From the IMG/VR virus record IMGVR_UViG_3300009537_000179, positions 1 through 23,818 of that record: 23,818 nt of DNA, one strand, 5' to 3'. The notes under the pieces are model-generated. The model was not told the origin of the DNA, did not search any database, and was given only the letters and a program-made list of their open reading frames with translations. This DNA is from a virus. This document shows positions 1,152-23,818 of the stretch, one piece after another (position 1 is the stretch's first letter; every line of letters starts with the position of its first letter). The translations under genes and the position numbers were made by a program.

Positions 1152-1307
1152 CTACTCTGCCTTCAGTACTGCCTTCATAATCTCTCGATGCGATTCCGCT
1201 ACCTCTTGTCTAGCCAACTCACGGCCAGTGTTGACATGGTTGGCCCCGATTACTGCGAAGTAGTACAAGGTATTCAGGGCCTTTTCCAGCGGGGTCTGCT
1301 CAATCAT
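1152..1307 (-). CDS. 51-aa hypothetical phage protein
   Basis: This is a short leftward ORF starting MIEQTPLEKALNTLYYFAVI and ending MKAVLKAE. AGGTG lies seven bases upstream of the ATG at 1307, a good ribosome binding site. The chain looks fully helical: an amphipathic first part (LEKALNTLYYFAVIGANHV) and a charged second part with several Glu, Arg and Lys. It sits 51 bases after the gene 1359-1685 and is probably expressed from the same promoter, P3. A hairpin follows its stop. The family is not recognised. Codon use and SD support a real gene despite its length. Confidence 0.6.
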   Translation of the reverse strand: MIEQTPLEKALNTLYYFAVIGANHVNTGRELARQEVAESHREIMKAVLKAE

Positions 1308-1358
1308 TGTGACACCTGAGGGTTGAGTGTGGGTGATAGCGGGGGCATGGCGAGTGAA

Positions 1359-1685
1359 CTACATGTTGTCGATCATGTCGTCCCAACTAGGATCCGGCTC
1401 CCAACCTTCTGGAGCAAACTCGATCCTGACGTTGTGCCGCGCATCGCCTAGGCATTCAACGCCCATGTACTCGATGTGCTGTGCCACGATTGCCTTGCGG
1501 ACGTTGGGGAACTTCCTCAGGACTTGAATCGGTTCCCATCCATTAAAATGAGCTTGGATGGCCATCAGAGCGAAGTCCCGAAGGGATTCCAGAATTGGAG
1601 CACCCACGGTCCTCGACCGTTCGACCCAATCGTCCACCTCGAAGTCCATCACATCTTCGAACGTTTCAGTCTCGCGTTTCCGCAT
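1359..1685 (-). CDS. Acidic hypothetical phage protein
   Basis: The product is 108 aa from the ATG at 1685, chosen because GAGGTG sits four bases upstream; in-frame ATGs further up lack such a site. The protein is acidic, with an N-terminal MRKRETETFEDVMDFEVDD segment, a central helical region with several Trp and Phe residues, and a tail reading EGWEPDPSWDDMIDNM. No membrane segment, zinc motif or nuclease motif is visible and I do not recognise the family. It is the promoter-proximal gene of the leftward cluster behind P3, facing the divergent control region. Strong acidity in a small early phage protein can go with DNA mimicry or host-protein inhibition, but nothing here shows that. Confidence 0.65.
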   Translation of the reverse strand: MRKRETETFEDVMDFEVDDWVERSRTVGAPILESLRDFALMAIQAHFNGWEPIQVLRKFPNVRKAIVAQHIEYMGVECLGDARHNVRIEFAPEGWEPDPSWDDMIDNM

Positions 1686-1783
1686 GGTACACCTCGTTTG
1701 CTTTTGTGGTGGTGCCATGCCCCCGCCATCAGTTTTCAAAGAGCATCCTACCTAGGTAATATCGCACATTGTCAGCCGAAGTA

Positions 1784-1812
1784 AAGATACCACCTAAGTC
1801 CTTGTGGCACAA
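1784..1812 (-). promoter_or_regulatory. Leftward sigma70-like promoter P3
   Basis: On the minus strand TATCTT (1784-1789) is preceded at 17 bases by TTGTGC (1807-1812). The -10 box and its flank (GGTATCTT) are shared with P1 and P2, but the -35 box is weaker. The leader to the ATG at 1685 is about 98 bases long. Confidence 0.55.
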
Positions 1813-1863
1813 TCACTTAGACCCCACCTACCCCGAACCCCGCATGAGTCACCGGGGCGAAGA

Positions 1864-1884
1864 GGTCTCCAAAATTTGCAGACC
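1864..1884. promoter_or_regulatory. 21-bp palindrome, operator candidate
   Basis: GGTCT at 1864-1868 pairs with AGACC at 1880-1884, and CAAA (1870-1873) pairs with TTTG (1875-1878) around a central A. Nine of ten symmetric pairs match. It lies between the leftward promoter P3 and the rightward promoter P4, 41 bases from the P4 -35 box and 51 bases from that of P3. The dyad has the size and symmetry of a dimeric repressor or activator site. The rest of the gap 1813-1925 contains a weaker CCCCG/CGGGG dyad and no gene that I can support. Confidence 0.5.
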
Positions 1885-1925
1885 AGAAAAATCAACGTTC
1901 CACCCTGAAACGCCCCCACAACAGT

Positions 1926-1954
1926 TTGACCCCACACCCGATAGGTGATACATT
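1926..1954 (+). promoter_or_regulatory. Rightward sigma70-like promoter P4
   Basis: TTGACC (1926-1931) and TACATT (1949-1954) are separated by 17 bases, matching the geometry of the leftward promoters. A start near 1961 would place the first nucleotide almost on the ATG at 1963, so the mRNA would be nearly leaderless or translation would begin at the ATG at 2008. This is the only good rightward promoter I found, and it precedes the whole packed rightward gene set. Confidence 0.55.
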
Positions 1955-1962
1955 CTACTTCC

Positions 1963-2580
1963 ATGACGAGTCCCCTCCGACGTGTGAAACCATCGGCGAG
2001 GGTCCGCATGGCTGCGCGACTCTACGCCACAGGCGCGTGCCGGACCAAGAAAGCCGCCTCCCTGGCAGCGGGACTCCATCCCAACTACCTCACCATGTTG
2101 ACCAGCCCCGCCAACGGGAGTGTGCCTGTGTTGCGTATGCTCAACGACATCGATGAGAAGATCGAAGACCAAACGATTGAAACGTCGGCGATCATCTCCC
2201 TCCTGGGCCGCAAAGCCCTTGGCAAGATTGCCCATTTGATGAACAACGGCAGTGAGGGAACACAACTCAAGGCTGCCATTGACTTGGCCGATCGCGCACC
2301 AGAAACATCGAAGACGCAGAAGGTCCAGTTGGACAGCTTCTCCCTCTCGGGCCAGGATGTGAAAGATCTGGCAGCGGCAATGGTGGAAAGTGCGAAGGCC
2401 CAGTCGGCCTACGCGGATGTTGCCATTCACGGACTTGATGAGATTGGACTCACCCCTCTTAAGGAGATTCCTCCCTATGCCAGCGAATGTGTCGCAGACG
2501 AAGAAGCGGGGACCGACGCCCAAGACACCCCGGCCCTCCAAACCCAAACCCCCGAAGGCGAAGGGGTACGTATCAAGTAG
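1963..2580 (+). CDS. Terminase small subunit candidate
   Basis: The product is 205 aa. Residues about 12-45 (RVRMAARLYATGACRTKKAA onward) look like the helix-turn-helix DNA-binding domain of small terminases. It is followed by a helical middle region and a disordered acidic C-terminus. It lies upstream of the large terminase, separated by two genes. In packaging motors this subunit recognises viral DNA and stimulates the large subunit. The start is uncertain: ATG 1963 keeps the first helix whole, ATG 2008 has GAGGG five bases upstream and fits promoter P4, and GTG 1945 is also in frame. The C-terminal 104 bases overlap another ORF. The identity rests on position and HTH pattern, not on a diagnostic motif. 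Confidence 0.6.
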   Translation: MTSPLRRVKPSARVRMAARLYATGACRTKKAASLAAGLHPNYLTMLTSPANGSVPVLRMLNDIDEKIEDQTIETSAIISLLGRKALGKIAHLMNNGSEGTQLKAAIDLADRAPETSKTQKVQLDSFSLSGQDVKDLAAAMVESAKAQSAYADVAIHGLDEIGLTPLKEIPPYASECVADEEAGTDAQDTPALQTQTPEGEGVRIK

Positions 2581-2629
2581 TGGTGGGGATCTGTTGTCCC
2601 CGGCCCGAAAAGGTACACGGAAGAAGTAA
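2477..2629 (+). CDS. Small Lys/Pro-rich protein overlapping TerS
   Basis: This 50-aa ORF lies in a different frame from the small terminase. AAGGAG is ten bases upstream of the ATG at 2477, and the stop TAA shares its last base with the ATG of the next gene (TAATG). The chain is strongly basic: KKRGPTPKTPRPSKPKPPKA, then a short hydrophilic tail ending GTRKK. There is no fold or membrane segment. Such tails bind nucleic acid non-specifically. It fills the space between the terminase stop and the glycosyltransferase start. It could be a non-coding coincidence of a C-rich stretch, but SD, spacing and coupling together argue for translation. Confidence 0.5.
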   Translation: MPANVSQTKKRGPTPKTPRPSKPKPPKAKGYVSSSGGDLLSPARKGTRKK

Positions 2630-3375
2630 TGTCGCTGCACATCGCCATCGTCACGGCATTCTGGCAACGGCCTGTGGTGTCCATGCTCTATTGGCAAGGC
2701 ATCACCCGGTTGCGGAAAACAGCAGCCAAAGCGGGGCACCAGTTATCTGTCGTTTCGTGCATCTCAGCAGAAGATGTCGATAACACCATGCTCGCTCGGA
2801 TATACCAAGCATCTTGTATTGTTCACGCACCCAACCAACCACTAGCAGCCAAATTAAACGTCGCCGTCAAGGGTGCCCGTGTCCTTAATCCTGACTACGT
2901 AATGAATTTGGGGTCAGATGATCTTATTTCCGATGGCCTCTTCCTCGGGATGGTGCAAGCAATGGAAGCGGGAATCCCACATGCAGGCATCACTGACATC
3001 TACTTTTGGGACATGCTGTCGGGGCGAGCAACCTATTGGTCAGGGTATCAAGTAGGTTATCGTGTAGGCCGCTCGGTTGGGGTGGCCCGTTTCTACTCTA
3101 GGTGTGTGCTCGAAACACTTGACTGGATGGTGTGGCCAGAATCAGAAAGGTCACGAGGAATGGATGGGATTTCGGATGAGCGATTGATTGGTCACGGGAT
3201 TCCATTGTTAGCTCAACCGATGCGCGACTGGAAAGGGGTTGCTGTTGACGTCAAGAGTTGGACAAACATCTGGCCCTTTTACAAGTATGATCGGGAGCCC
3301 GTTGACGCAGCGATACTCGTAGATGACCTTCCTGAGTTGTCAGCCATCTTGGTGACACACGAGAGCAATGACTGA
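2629..3375 (+). CDS. GT-A glycosyltransferase-like protein
   Basis: The product is 248 aa. MSLHIAIVTAFWQRP is a typical first beta strand and loop of family-2-like GT-A enzymes. Residues 73-100 read as the nucleotide-sugar region: an AAKLNVAV segment, then NPDYVMNLGSDDLIS, whose SDD corresponds to the DXD metal and donor site. Acidic D179 and DE at 183-184 could supply a base. No membrane anchor is visible, so a soluble enzyme acting on a protein, surface glycan or modified base is possible; the substrate is unknown. The gene is visibly more AT-rich than the large terminase, suggesting separate acquisition. It overlaps the terminase start by eight bases, so expression is coupled. Confidence 0.65.
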   Translation: MSLHIAIVTAFWQRPVVSMLYWQGITRLRKTAAKAGHQLSVVSCISAEDVDNTMLARIYQASCIVHAPNQPLAAKLNVAVKGARVLNPDYVMNLGSDDLISDGLFLGMVQAMEAGIPHAGITDIYFWDMLSGRATYWSGYQVGYRVGRSVGVARFYSRCVLETLDWMVWPESERSRGMDGISDERLIGHGIPLLAQPMRDWKGVAVDVKSWTNIWPFYKYDREPVDAAILVDDLPELSAILVTHESND

Positions 3376-5035
3376 CGTCGATCTGCCGGGACTCGATGAC
3401 GAGATCACACGTCTGCCGCAGGACATCAGGGCCGACTTGGCCGAGCGGGGACGCAACGATCTCTACTTCTTTGCCAAGGGGGTGATGGGCTACAGTGACA
3501 TGACGGAGCGGTGCCACAAGCCCCTCTGCGTGTTCCTCGACCAGCATCCAGCCCTCCAGAAGTTGGTCCTGATGCCTCGGGGCCACTTCAAGTCCTCGAT
3601 CGCCACCATCGCCAGGACGGCCCAAAAGGTGGTGAGGGATCCCAACGAGCGGATCCTGGTCGTCAACGAAGTGGCTGACAACGCAGAGAACTTCCTCTCG
3701 GCCATCAAGCAACACGCCGAATCAAACAAAATCTTCAGGGCACTCTACAGCGAGATCATTCCCAAGGACACCAGACGCATCCGCTGGAGCGGGAAGGAGT
3801 TGGAGTTCAATCGCCAGTGGCATGGACCGGAGCCCACGGTGAGTGCGATGGGGATGACCAGTACTCTCACGTCGCGCCACTACACCCATCTGGCCTGCGA
3901 CGATCCCATCTCCGAAGATGCCGTCAAGTCTCCTACGGTGATGCAGGACGCCATCACACGCATCGGGAAGTTCCGAAGCCTCCAGGTGAAACCCAAGAGC
4001 GATACCTTCGATTTGGTGGGAACCAGGTGGGCTCTTCATGATGTCTACTCCTTCTTCATGAAGGCTTTAGAGGGGGAGATTGCCATCTTTGCACGGGCCG
4101 CGACGGTGGATGGGGAACTCATCTTCCCCGAACTGATCTCCCAGGAGATCTTGGCCTCCATCCGGAACGTGATCGGGGAGTACGCCTTCTCGTGTCTCTA
4201 CATGAACAACCCAAGGGACATCGCCAACCAGGACTTCAACGTCCAGGATCTTCGGTTCTGGAAGTGGTCGCGGGACCAAGAAGCCGTGATGCTCTACAAT
4301 CCCCAAGGGGAGATCCTTAGGGAGGTGCCGCTGGCGAAGCTGGACATCAACGTGTCGGTTGATCTGGCAATGAGTGAGAAGGTGACGAGCGATCGCAATG
4401 CAGTGGTGGTGACGGGCTGCACTCCCACAGGCGACGTGGTGGTGTTGGATACGTGGGTCCAACGGTGCACACCCCTCCAGGTGATCGAGCAGTTGTGTGC
4501 GGTGATCACGCGGTTCCGGCCTCGACAGGTGGGGATCGAGTCGATCATGTACCAGAAGTCACTGAAGCACTTCCTCAAGCAGGAGTTGGAGCGGCGGGGC
4601 CTCTACGCGAACATCACGGACCTCAAAGCCATTCCCTCGAAGCGGGGGACAGGCAACAACTCGAAGGAAGCGCGGATTCGAGGCCTGCAGCCGATCGCGG
4701 CCACAGGACACCTCTATATCCTGCCCACCCAGCATGAGTTGCGGAACGAACTGGCTGACTTCCCCCTCGGGGAGCACGATGACACGATTGATGCCCTGGC
4801 CCACCAGTTGACGATGTGGCGGGGCCTCCTGGGGACGGAGCGGATGAAGAAGTACAAGGCGAGTGAGGAACGGATCCTACGGGAGATTCGTACCGAGGAT
4901 CTCGCGGCCCGTCATCCCCACCGCTATCAGTATGAATCCTTTGGTCCTCACGACCGTCCCCATCCTGACGACTTGGGGATTGAGTTGCCCCAGTTCTCCC
5001 GGTTTGAGGACTTTGTGTTGACGGAGAGGATGTAG
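3368..5035 (+). CDS. terL: Terminase large subunit (packaging ATPase/nuclease)
   Basis: The 555-aa product is the motor that pumps and cuts viral DNA. The ATPase domain has the phage-type Walker A PRGHFKSS (residues 70-77), Walker B HLACDDP (174-180) and a coupling motif VGTRW (217-221). The RNase H-like nuclease domain follows, with D332 (SVDLAMSEK), E391 (GIESIMYQ) and the DDTIDAL segment (471-477). Length and order are normal for the family. The ATG at 3368 overlaps the end of the glycosyltransferase gene by eight bases. Codon use is GC-rich and regular, unlike the preceding gene. Family assignment is secure; the packaging strategy (cos or headful) cannot be read from it here. Confidence 0.95.
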   Translation: MTDVDLPGLDDEITRLPQDIRADLAERGRNDLYFFAKGVMGYSDMTERCHKPLCVFLDQHPALQKLVLMPRGHFKSSIATIARTAQKVVRDPNERILVVNEVADNAENFLSAIKQHAESNKIFRALYSEIIPKDTRRIRWSGKELEFNRQWHGPEPTVSAMGMTSTLTSRHYTHLACDDPISEDAVKSPTVMQDAITRIGKFRSLQVKPKSDTFDLVGTRWALHDVYSFFMKALEGEIAIFARAATVDGELIFPELISQEILASIRNVIGEYAFSCLYMNNPRDIANQDFNVQDLRFWKWSRDQEAVMLYNPQGEILREVPLAKLDINVSVDLAMSEKVTSDRNAVVVTGCTPTGDVVVLDTWVQRCTPLQVIEQLCAVITRFRPRQVGIESIMYQKSLKHFLKQELERRGLYANITDLKAIPSKRGTGNNSKEARIRGLQPIAATGHLYILPTQHELRNELADFPLGEHDDTIDALAHQLTMWRGLLGTERMKKYKASEERILREIRTEDLAARHPHRYQYESFGPHDRPHPDDLGIELPQFSRFEDFVLTERM

Positions 5036-5037
5036 CG

Positions 5038-5187
5038 ATGCCCAAGAAACTAGAGCGGGAACTCAAGCGAGATGCAAAGAAGAAGGGCCTCAAAGGCGAA
5101 CGGGCCGATGCGTATGTGTATGGAACGCTTCGGAAGACCGGGTGGACGCCCAGTCATCAGAAGAAGCCAACACGCCGGAAGGGCTGA
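5038..5187 (+). CDS. 49-aa conserved basic phage protein
   Basis: The short ORF encodes MPKKLERELKRDAKKKGLKG, then ERADAYVYGTLRKTGWTPSH and a basic tail. The pattern MPKKLE, KKGLKGERADAYVYGTLRKTGW recurs as a stand-alone small protein in many phage genomes, often near terminase or structural genes; I know the pattern but no function. It starts two bases after the large-terminase stop, with GGAGAGG upstream, and its TGA overlaps the ATG of the HNH gene (TGATG), so the three are probably translated in sequence. High Lys and Arg content suggests nucleic-acid contact. It is too short for most gene finders. Confidence 0.8.
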   Translation: MPKKLERELKRDAKKKGLKGERADAYVYGTLRKTGWTPSHQKKPTRRKG

Positions 5188-7320: not shown

Positions 7321-7545
7321 ATGCCTGTAACGCTACGTGACCTCACTCCAGAGTTGATTGAACGGTTTGCGTCACGAGCGAGGCAGGCGAGTGGATGGGG
7401 ACGAGGGAAACCAGGACCGACGCTGAAAGAGTTGGCGAAGGAGTTTGATATGTCTATCAAGACGGCACAGCGTCTTCGTGTGCGGTTGGGCCTACAGGCC
7501 AAAATGCCACAGAGGAAGTCATGCGAGTCGATCACGCAGATGTAG
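7321..7545 (+). CDS. Small helix-turn-helix protein
   Basis: The 74-aa product contains a clear HTH segment at about residues 33-58 (PTLKELAKEFDMSIKTAQRL, then RVRLGL), as in small DNA-binding regulators and transposase-like N-termini. The basic first half (SRARQASGWGRGKPG) could add DNA contacts. It starts two bases after the preceding stop with GGGAG upstream. Its last 25 bases overlap the next gene. A regulator inside a structural and membrane gene set is unusual. Binding to the divergent-region palindrome is conceivable but only a guess. Confidence 0.6.
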   Translation: MPVTLRDLTPELIERFASRARQASGWGRGKPGPTLKELAKEFDMSIKTAQRLRVRLGLQAKMPQRKSCESITQM

Positions 7546-22173: not shown

Positions 22174-23818
22174 TGATCCTTTTCGTTGACGTTGCCGAGA
22201 AATTACAGGTCCAAACTGGATCGGCATTGGACGTTGATGTGCACGTCTCGTGGATAGATCACACGACGACGACGTTGACACCAGGCGATACCAATACGCC
22301 AATCACGACGGCAACAACAACTGATGTGATGGCAGGGCCGGGAGCATCGACTCAGCGTCAGTTGAAGTTCCTCAATGTACGAAATACGGATGGGGCAGGA
22401 TCGTGCCCAGTGACGGTAATTCATGTGGGCCTAGTGGACACGGTGGAGTTGTTCAAATGTACGCTGGGGCCTGGCGAGGAGTTGACCTTTCTTGACGGGA
22501 TTGGATGGCAGGTCTTTGACAACCAAGGCAGCGTCAAGGCGGGATTCACTGGGCCTGTTGGGGCGACGGGTGGAACGGGCGAAGTGGGTCCTCCGGTGTT
22601 TCTTGTGGGAGAGCCAGGAGAGGATGGGTGGCCTGGACCTCCTGGAATAGATGGGCAAACTGGACCGCAAGGACCTCAGGGGATTCAAGGACCAGAGGGA
22701 CCACAAGGACTCATCGGACCTGAGGGGCCTGAGGGACTGGAAGGCGTACGTGGACCACCTGGCGCTCCAGGGATGGACGGGGCGACTGGTGCAACTGGCG
22801 CTCAAGGCGATCAGGGACCTGTCATCTATATCGAACCGGACCCTGGTGATGAGGGGCCGATGGGACCTCCTGGATTGGAAGGTCCGACTGGACCGATTGG
22901 GCCAACTGGTTCCACGGGACCAACAGGTGCTCAAGGTGTTCAAGGAGAAGCGGGACCGCCTGTATTTCTTGTGGGAGATGATGGTGAAGAGGGTCCAATA
23001 GGTCCGCCTGGCCCAAGTGGTACTCCAGGTCCTACGGGCGCGACAGGGGCTACCGGGGCAACTGGAGCGACAGGACCAGCGGTGTTCCTTGTTGGAGAAG
23101 AGGGGCCTGAAGGTCCTCCAGGTCCTCCTGGCCCACAAGGGATGACAGGAACTGACTGGGACCAGATTCTCGACGAACAAGTTGAACCTGCGTCACCGCC
23201 AGCAGACTCCATTCATCTGTATGCTACGGATGAGCATGGTCTGACTTTTGTGTGGTTTAAGGATTCAAGTGGATTCACCCAACGGGTGATGCGAGATAAC
23301 ATTCTTCTCGTTAGAAATACGTCAGGTGGGCCTCTTACTAAGTCCACTGTAGTAAGTATTACGGGAACGACAGGAGATGTGCCAGAGGTAGCAGAAGCAT
23401 TGGCAGACAATATCGACACACTCGCTGATGGATTTCTTGCAGAAGATATTGCTGATAACTCCTTTGGCCGAATGATGATAGTTGGAAAGATTGAAGATCT
23501 TAATACCACTGGGCTGTCTGAGGGGTCAAGACTGTATCTGTCACAATCGACTCCTGGCGCATTCACTGATCAGGTTCCTCCAAATACAAGTCTTTGGCGA
23601 CAGCGGATAGGGATTGTTATTCGAGAACACGGAACTCAGGGGTCAATCCTTGTGATTATTGGTTCAGGAGATCGTGACATTCGAGTGCCACAGGTTGTGT
23701 TGAGTATGGGAGATGAGATTGAAGGACCTGAAGGACCTATGGGGCCAATAGGACCTCCTGGGCCAGCAGGAACTGGTAGTGGTAGTGATGGTTATCCACC
23801 TCAACTTGGGTATGCGAG
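22173..23818 (+). CDS. Collagen-like tail fiber protein, 3' end missing
   Basis: At least 548 aa are encoded before the window ends in frame. Residues 1-120 form a beta-rich head-proximal part. From about 124 to 327 lies a Gly-X-Y collagen-like region with many GPP, GPQ and GAT triplets, interrupted four times by a VFLVG-type motif (near 22596, 22821, 22962, 23082). Then comes a globular domain (about 345-505) with [31 protein letters not shown] and [16 protein letters not shown], well known in phage fibers. Collagen-like triplets then resume (about 517-534) and the chain runs off. Phage collagen-like regions form rigid trimeric stalks. The start ATG overlaps the previous stop as TAATG. Confidence 0.8.
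22590..23096 (+). repeat. Repeated VFLVG interruption motif in the collagen-like region
   Basis: Copies: [13 protein letters not shown] (22590 on), [13 protein letters not shown] (22818 on), [13 protein letters not shown] (22956 on) and [13 protein letters not shown] (23076 on). Each is a hydrophobic beta-like strand followed by an acidic turn, then GP or GPP triplets. The gaps between copies shrink: 75, 47 and 40 residues. Confidence 0.7.

Follow-up and report, generated by a model that had tools for sequence, protein, structure and literature searches.

The cos region of lambda-type phages is a multi-part, single-copy noncoding site that lies about 100–200 bp upstream of terS, the small terminase gene. 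The locus described here carries a conserved element that is alike in being multi-part, single-copy and at about this distance upstream of terS; unlike a lambda-type cos region, however, it is crossed by contigs. The gene plan resembles that of podoviruses of the phage 7-11/phiEco32 type, in which structural and functional clusters diverge from one long intergenic region with both promoters, as is seen here (PMC4331800), and the portal protein encoded in the window (the whole stretch of DNA analyzed, a 23.8-kb linear IMG/VR record of a podovirus-like phage) matches SU10_portal (PF23899), a further likeness to this type. The late promoters of phage 7-11 are specific to the phage (TGATGT with TATA) and depend on a sigma factor that it encodes (PMC4331800), while the rightward promoter of our phage, P4, is sigma70-like. 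In the A2b/A2c–A3 switch of Bacillus phage phi29 (PMC10899789), which involves p4, host-type promoters for leftward early and rightward late transcription likewise stand back to back and flank candidate protein sites, as predicted here, but the dyad of our phage is not kept in relatives and the element that is kept is asymmetric. Finally, the stoperators of the mycobacteriophage L5 have a layout like that of the dispersed, phage-specific sites of our relatives, one of which lies at P4, although L5-type sites are asymmetric, those of the relatives are dyads and the window itself lacks such a family (PMC9283540).

The phage stands far from described ones. Its large terminase matches phrog_38, yet the best matches of this protein among named records are 23–35% identical, and the region 1300–5100 gave zero nucleotide-level matches among 50,697 phage records. 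We compared the locus with about 15 uncultivated relatives, all contig fragments, obtained by alignment-driven searches of viral contigs; terS used alone as the query returned no relatives, and an alignment was required to find them. DNA upstream of terS was available for L004, L005, L011–L016 and L027–L030, and later for L044, L047/L048, L057 and L059. The TerS proteins of eight aligned relatives are 37–57% identical to that of our phage. The genome contigs searched held no terminase relative and therefore gave no hint of the host. A first MAFFT alignment of the whole upstream DNA regions was uninformative. The null distributions for the dyad and promoter scans were mostly mononucleotide shuffles.

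Divergent promoters between opposed gene blocks

The two relatives of 40–41 kb, G001 and G002, have opposed gene blocks. Packaging and structural genes run rightward from terS, and a primase-like DUF3987 gene, a UDG–DNA polymerase A fusion, a ParB-N/methylase gene and others run leftward. The blocks meet at one intergenic region, which is therefore the divergent hub of the genome, and a sigma70-like promoter was found for each direction. In the window, the late genes run rightward from 1963. The preliminary description had proposed a divergent control region here, with leftward genes on one side and the rightward late unit on the other, and the gene layout of G001 and G002 bears this out: the stretch is a genuine divergent control region, of an ordinary kind with interesting details. 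Leftward open reading frames at 22431–23566 were discounted as antisense to a collagen-like plus-strand gene. The transcription features of the hub are as follows.

1359–1685, minus strand: first leftward open reading frame, an orphan of 108 aa with the Shine–Dalgarno (SD) sequence GAGGTG
1733–1745, minus strand: boxA-like TGCTCTTTGAAAA in the predicted leader of the P3 transcript, one mismatch to NGCTCTTTGACAA
1784–1812, minus strand: leftward promoter P3, TTGTGC-17-TATCTT with an extended −10
1926–1954, plus strand: P4, promoter of terS and the late unit, the best sigma70-like match upstream of terS

P4 consists of TTGACC (1926–1931), a 17-base spacer and TACATT (1949–1954), exactly as claimed before, with an extended −10 TG at 1946–1947. 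Its score is 9/12, with p of about 0.017 when the 150 bp before the gene are shuffled. In 13 phages, these 150 bp were scanned without bias for the best match, which was a TTG-17-T sigma70-like promoter in 10, with p at most 0.017 in seven, this phage included. The extended −10 TG, which played no part in the scan score, is present in 7 of these 10 promoters and in 12 of 16 once those assigned by eye are added; three promoters, those of L012, L016 and L027, were assigned in this way, as the unbiased scan had ranked others first. Nearly every relative has a sigma70-like promoter with a 17-bp spacer directly upstream of terS, and within the close group P4 of this phage (TTGACC, TACATT) is the weakest. 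This conserved placement, which upholds the earlier one, supports the assignment of P4 as a genuine promoter. A direct repeat, CACTTAGACCCCAC at 1814–1827 beside the P3 −35 and CAGTTTGACCCCAC at 1922–1935 over the P4 −35, may be a chance match. A terminator-like minus-strand hairpin at 1894–1914 was considered a chance match.

On the leftward side, promoters occur at the same place as P3 in L004, L005, L027 and L059, and the −10 and spacing of P3 recur in the window at 1029–1001 and 332–304, in two more leftward promoters. The boxA consensus in transcript leaders is GYTCTTTAANA (PMC5725501), from which TGCTCTTTGAAAA shows one core difference (G for A). Similarly placed boxA-like elements were found on the minus strand of L004 (343), L005 (49) and L027 (5631), and Nus-dependent antitermination of the leftward transcript would be a reasonable guess. 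An 18-nt inverted repeat (1334–1351 and 1714–1731; 17/18, the mismatch being a possible G-U) flanks the first leftward open reading frame, so that its 5' and 3' untranslated ends could pair. In addition, a 28-bp tandem repeat, CAAGACTCCCTCTCTCTCGATGACGGGG, at 1027–1082 adjoins the leftward promoter P2.

With regard to a regulator, the helix-turn-helix (HTH) protein of 7321–7545 had been put forward, but it has no Pfam or PHROG match and sits in the late block. An HTH-like early gene, present in 6 of 10 records, is a better candidate; in this phage it would be expected to the left of the window. Sigma70_r4 was not detected over the cut-off in 10 records, which are partial, and PF00940 (phage RNA polymerase) had no match in a search whose positive controls gave no signal either.

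The start and leader of terS

1961–1963, plus strand: predicted transcription start, C1961 to A1963, 7–9 bases past the last −10 base, giving a leader of 0–2 nt
1963–2580, plus strand: terS, small terminase of 205 aa, start ATG1963 by N-terminal alignment

The N terminus of TerS, MTSPLRRVKPSARVRMAARLY, aligns without gaps with MANPLANVKPSPRVRMAARLY of L011 and MYDPIANV... of L004. ATG1963 is the right start because MxxPLxxVKPS is common to the relatives. The preliminary description had proposed that terS is either leaderless or begins at 2008; the latter start is rejected, as conserved N-terminal residues would be lost, and the former holds as the best prediction. The −10 of P4 ends 8 bases before ATG1963, within the distance of 7–9 bases taken as the criterion for a leaderless mRNA. 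No usable SD was found for ATG1963, whereas a recognizable one precedes most other genes of the window. The gap from the −10 to the start codon is 8 bases in this phage versus 18–114 in the relatives, and the leaderless layout is therefore peculiar to this phage and not a feature of the group.

As a prediction, a nearly leaderless terS message is well supported, and we regard it as probable for this phage. Alternatively, the message could have a longer 5' end from an unrecognized upstream promoter and use AGGTGAT (1943–1949), the sole SD-like sequence before ATG1963, as its SD. This sequence is similar to the SD AGGAGGTGAT, and all relatives have leaders before terS. Nevertheless, AGGTGAT lies too far upstream (17 bases from AGG to ATG), its presence is accounted for by overlap with the −10, and 1880–1945 holds no other −10, which makes a leadered message unlikely.

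A conserved asymmetric element and the palindrome within it

1828–1839: block 1 of the conserved noncoding element, the ACCTACCCCGAACC region with CCCCGAA at 1831–1837
1864–1892: block 2, GGTCTCCAAAATTTGCAGACCAGAAAAAT, 46 bp from block 1, the sole strong match in the window
1864–1884: 21-bp dyad GGTCTCCAAAATTTGCAGACC, 9 of 10 pairs matching, identical to the first 21 bases of block 2

Between the two promoters, the relatives share an element that consists of CCCCGAA, a CGCGC core within nTCTCaaCnnTTCGCGCA at 45–47 bp from the first base, and an A-tract (..AAAAA). In this phage, the element spans 1831–1892, upstream of both promoters, and block 2 starts exactly at 1864. Ten relatives, without this phage, were used to build a two-block scoring matrix that limits the spacing, and this matrix matched at 1831 with 22.8 bits and a spacing of 46; the next independent place on either strand scored about 7, and the best score in 500 shuffled intergenic regions was 16.2. 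An nhmmer search with a model of the element missed the window copy, as its filters probably need longer ungapped matches. The element occurs once per record in the 11 phage records scanned, always near terS. It was not found in more distant terminase relatives, nor was a conserved RNA fold found for it.

The distance from the element to the P4 −35 ranges from 95 to 204 bp across the relatives without a pattern, and in L016 an HNH-type endonuclease gene (3005–3460, minus strand) lies between the element plus dyad and the terS promoter, separating them by ~700 bp. Both observations argue against a proximal activator site; they would better fit a site whose function does not depend on P4, for instance in packaging or at the genome terminus. 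In several relatives the contig continues through the element, which rules out a simple cohesive end for these records. No terminal repeats were found in G001 or G002.

The pairing of 9 of 10 positions at 1864–1884 is correct as it was first reported. Throughout the 23.8-kb window, no other 10+1+10 dyad has one mismatch or fewer, where shuffles expect 0.5 such dyads, and the chance of such a dyad in the 223-bp intergenic region is 0.35% for the exact geometry and 2.2% when gaps of 0–8 are allowed. These values are suggestive: the dyad is modestly surprising in its place and unremarkable genome-wide. The window holds no second copy within 3 mismatches. Conservation in relatives was the test that the preliminary description had itself set for a conserved operator, and at the homologous 21 bases of 11 relatives just 0–4 of 10 positions pair, so that a conserved operator is not supported. 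The exact dyad pattern was matched 11 times among 2.9 million viral contigs, never near a terminase relative, and these matches were taken as chance. The palindrome is probably incidental to the conserved asymmetric element, and its symmetry peculiar to this phage.

Dyads of a different kind are common in the relatives. In 12 of 16 phages, the 70 bp that precede the P4 −35 contain a 7-6-7 dyad (7-bp arms with a 6-bp gap, at least 6 of 7 pairs), compared with a mean of 0.97 and a maximum of 5 in the shuffle null. The arms vary by phage (CTTGTCC, CTTGTAC, GTTATTC, GTTAC and others), and in several phages the phage's own 20-bp dyad recurs elsewhere: six copies each in G002 and G001, four or five in G004, three in several others and four copies of a GATTCA form in L027. 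The copies in the two 40–41-kb relatives are located as follows.

G001 (L018–L020): 1336, 4987, 7027, 8279, 10928 and 27610
G002 (L021–L023): 761, 3243, 9679, 21674, 32208 and 37887

Dispersed dyads are also present in L024, L025, L027, L029 and L047. In each family, one copy is always near P4 of terS, and several lie in short intergenic gaps. The window has neither a dispersed dyad family nor a 7-6-7 dyad before P4; either this phage lost the 7-6-7 system or the dyad at 1864 replaced it. The dispersed dyads may have a partner in the product of an early L022 gene (16345–17583, minus strand), which fuses a ParB N-terminal domain with an N6/N4 DNA methylase.

What the hub may do

We consider it probable, at roughly 60%, that the locus consists of divergent early and late promoters around a conserved DNA site, which would serve either packaging or the genome terminus or else bind a regulator. 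In this uncultivated podovirus with an SU10 portal, transcription would diverge from a single hub, the region 1740–1962. P3, a sigma70 promoter of the host type with a boxA-like sequence in its leader, would send transcription leftward into the replication block, presumably early, whereas the rightward block of packaging and structural genes would be transcribed from P4, a host-type promoter with an extended −10. The P4–terS leader of this phage appears to have shrunk until the message starts at ATG1963 or no more than two bases from it, and this message would have to be translated by leaderless initiation. Between the promoters, selection seems to keep the asymmetric sequence of 1831–1892, with the palindrome lying inside block 2. 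We suggest that the element is a DNA–protein site needed once per genome beside terS, and we somewhat prefer a packaging or terminus site bound by terminase over a binding site for an early/late regulator.

Taken on its own, the more specific proposal that the element is a pac- or cos-like site recognized by the adjacent small terminase, with the promoters merely flanking it, is tentative. Its single copy in each record near terS, its two-part asymmetric build with an A-tract at one end and its retention where an HNH gene was inserted between it and P4 all speak for such a site, as does phage 7-11, whose two clusters diverge from a long intergenic stretch made up of the genome ends (PMC4331800). 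Against this stand the lack of terminal repeats in G001 and G002 and the contigs that cross the element. Somewhat less probable is that the 21-bp dyad is an operator of this phage, at which a dimeric phage regulator switches leftward early to rightward late transcription in the manner of phi29 p4. Since the dyad at 1864 possibly replaced the 7-6-7 system, this proposal stays alive: the dyad is improbable by chance in its place (0.35–2.2%) and could be a real operator newly arisen here, it sits 41 bp upstream of the P4 −35 where a dyad at about such a position is the rule (12/16 relatives), and an HTH-like early gene is present in 6/10 records. However, its geometry is odd (7-7-7) compared with the even gap of 6 in the relatives, it is single-copy here whereas the relatives have dispersed families, and it falls exactly on block 2 of the asymmetric element. 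It is conceivable, but improbable, that the element doubles as a terminase recognition and regulatory site, with TerS made from its own nearly leaderless message binding between P3 and P4 and so coupling the start of packaging to a shift between leftward and rightward transcription.

With the preferred reading of the locus, an uncultivated podovirus group without a close isolate gains a documented control region. What is conserved (P4, the terS start and the asymmetric element) is now separated from what is not (the palindrome), which points experiments to the right bases. The element, single in each record beside terS, is a concrete candidate for a packaging or switch site. Moreover, the predicted leaderless terS of this phage and the leadered terS of its relatives lend themselves naturally to a comparison of the ways in which phages adjust terminase expression.
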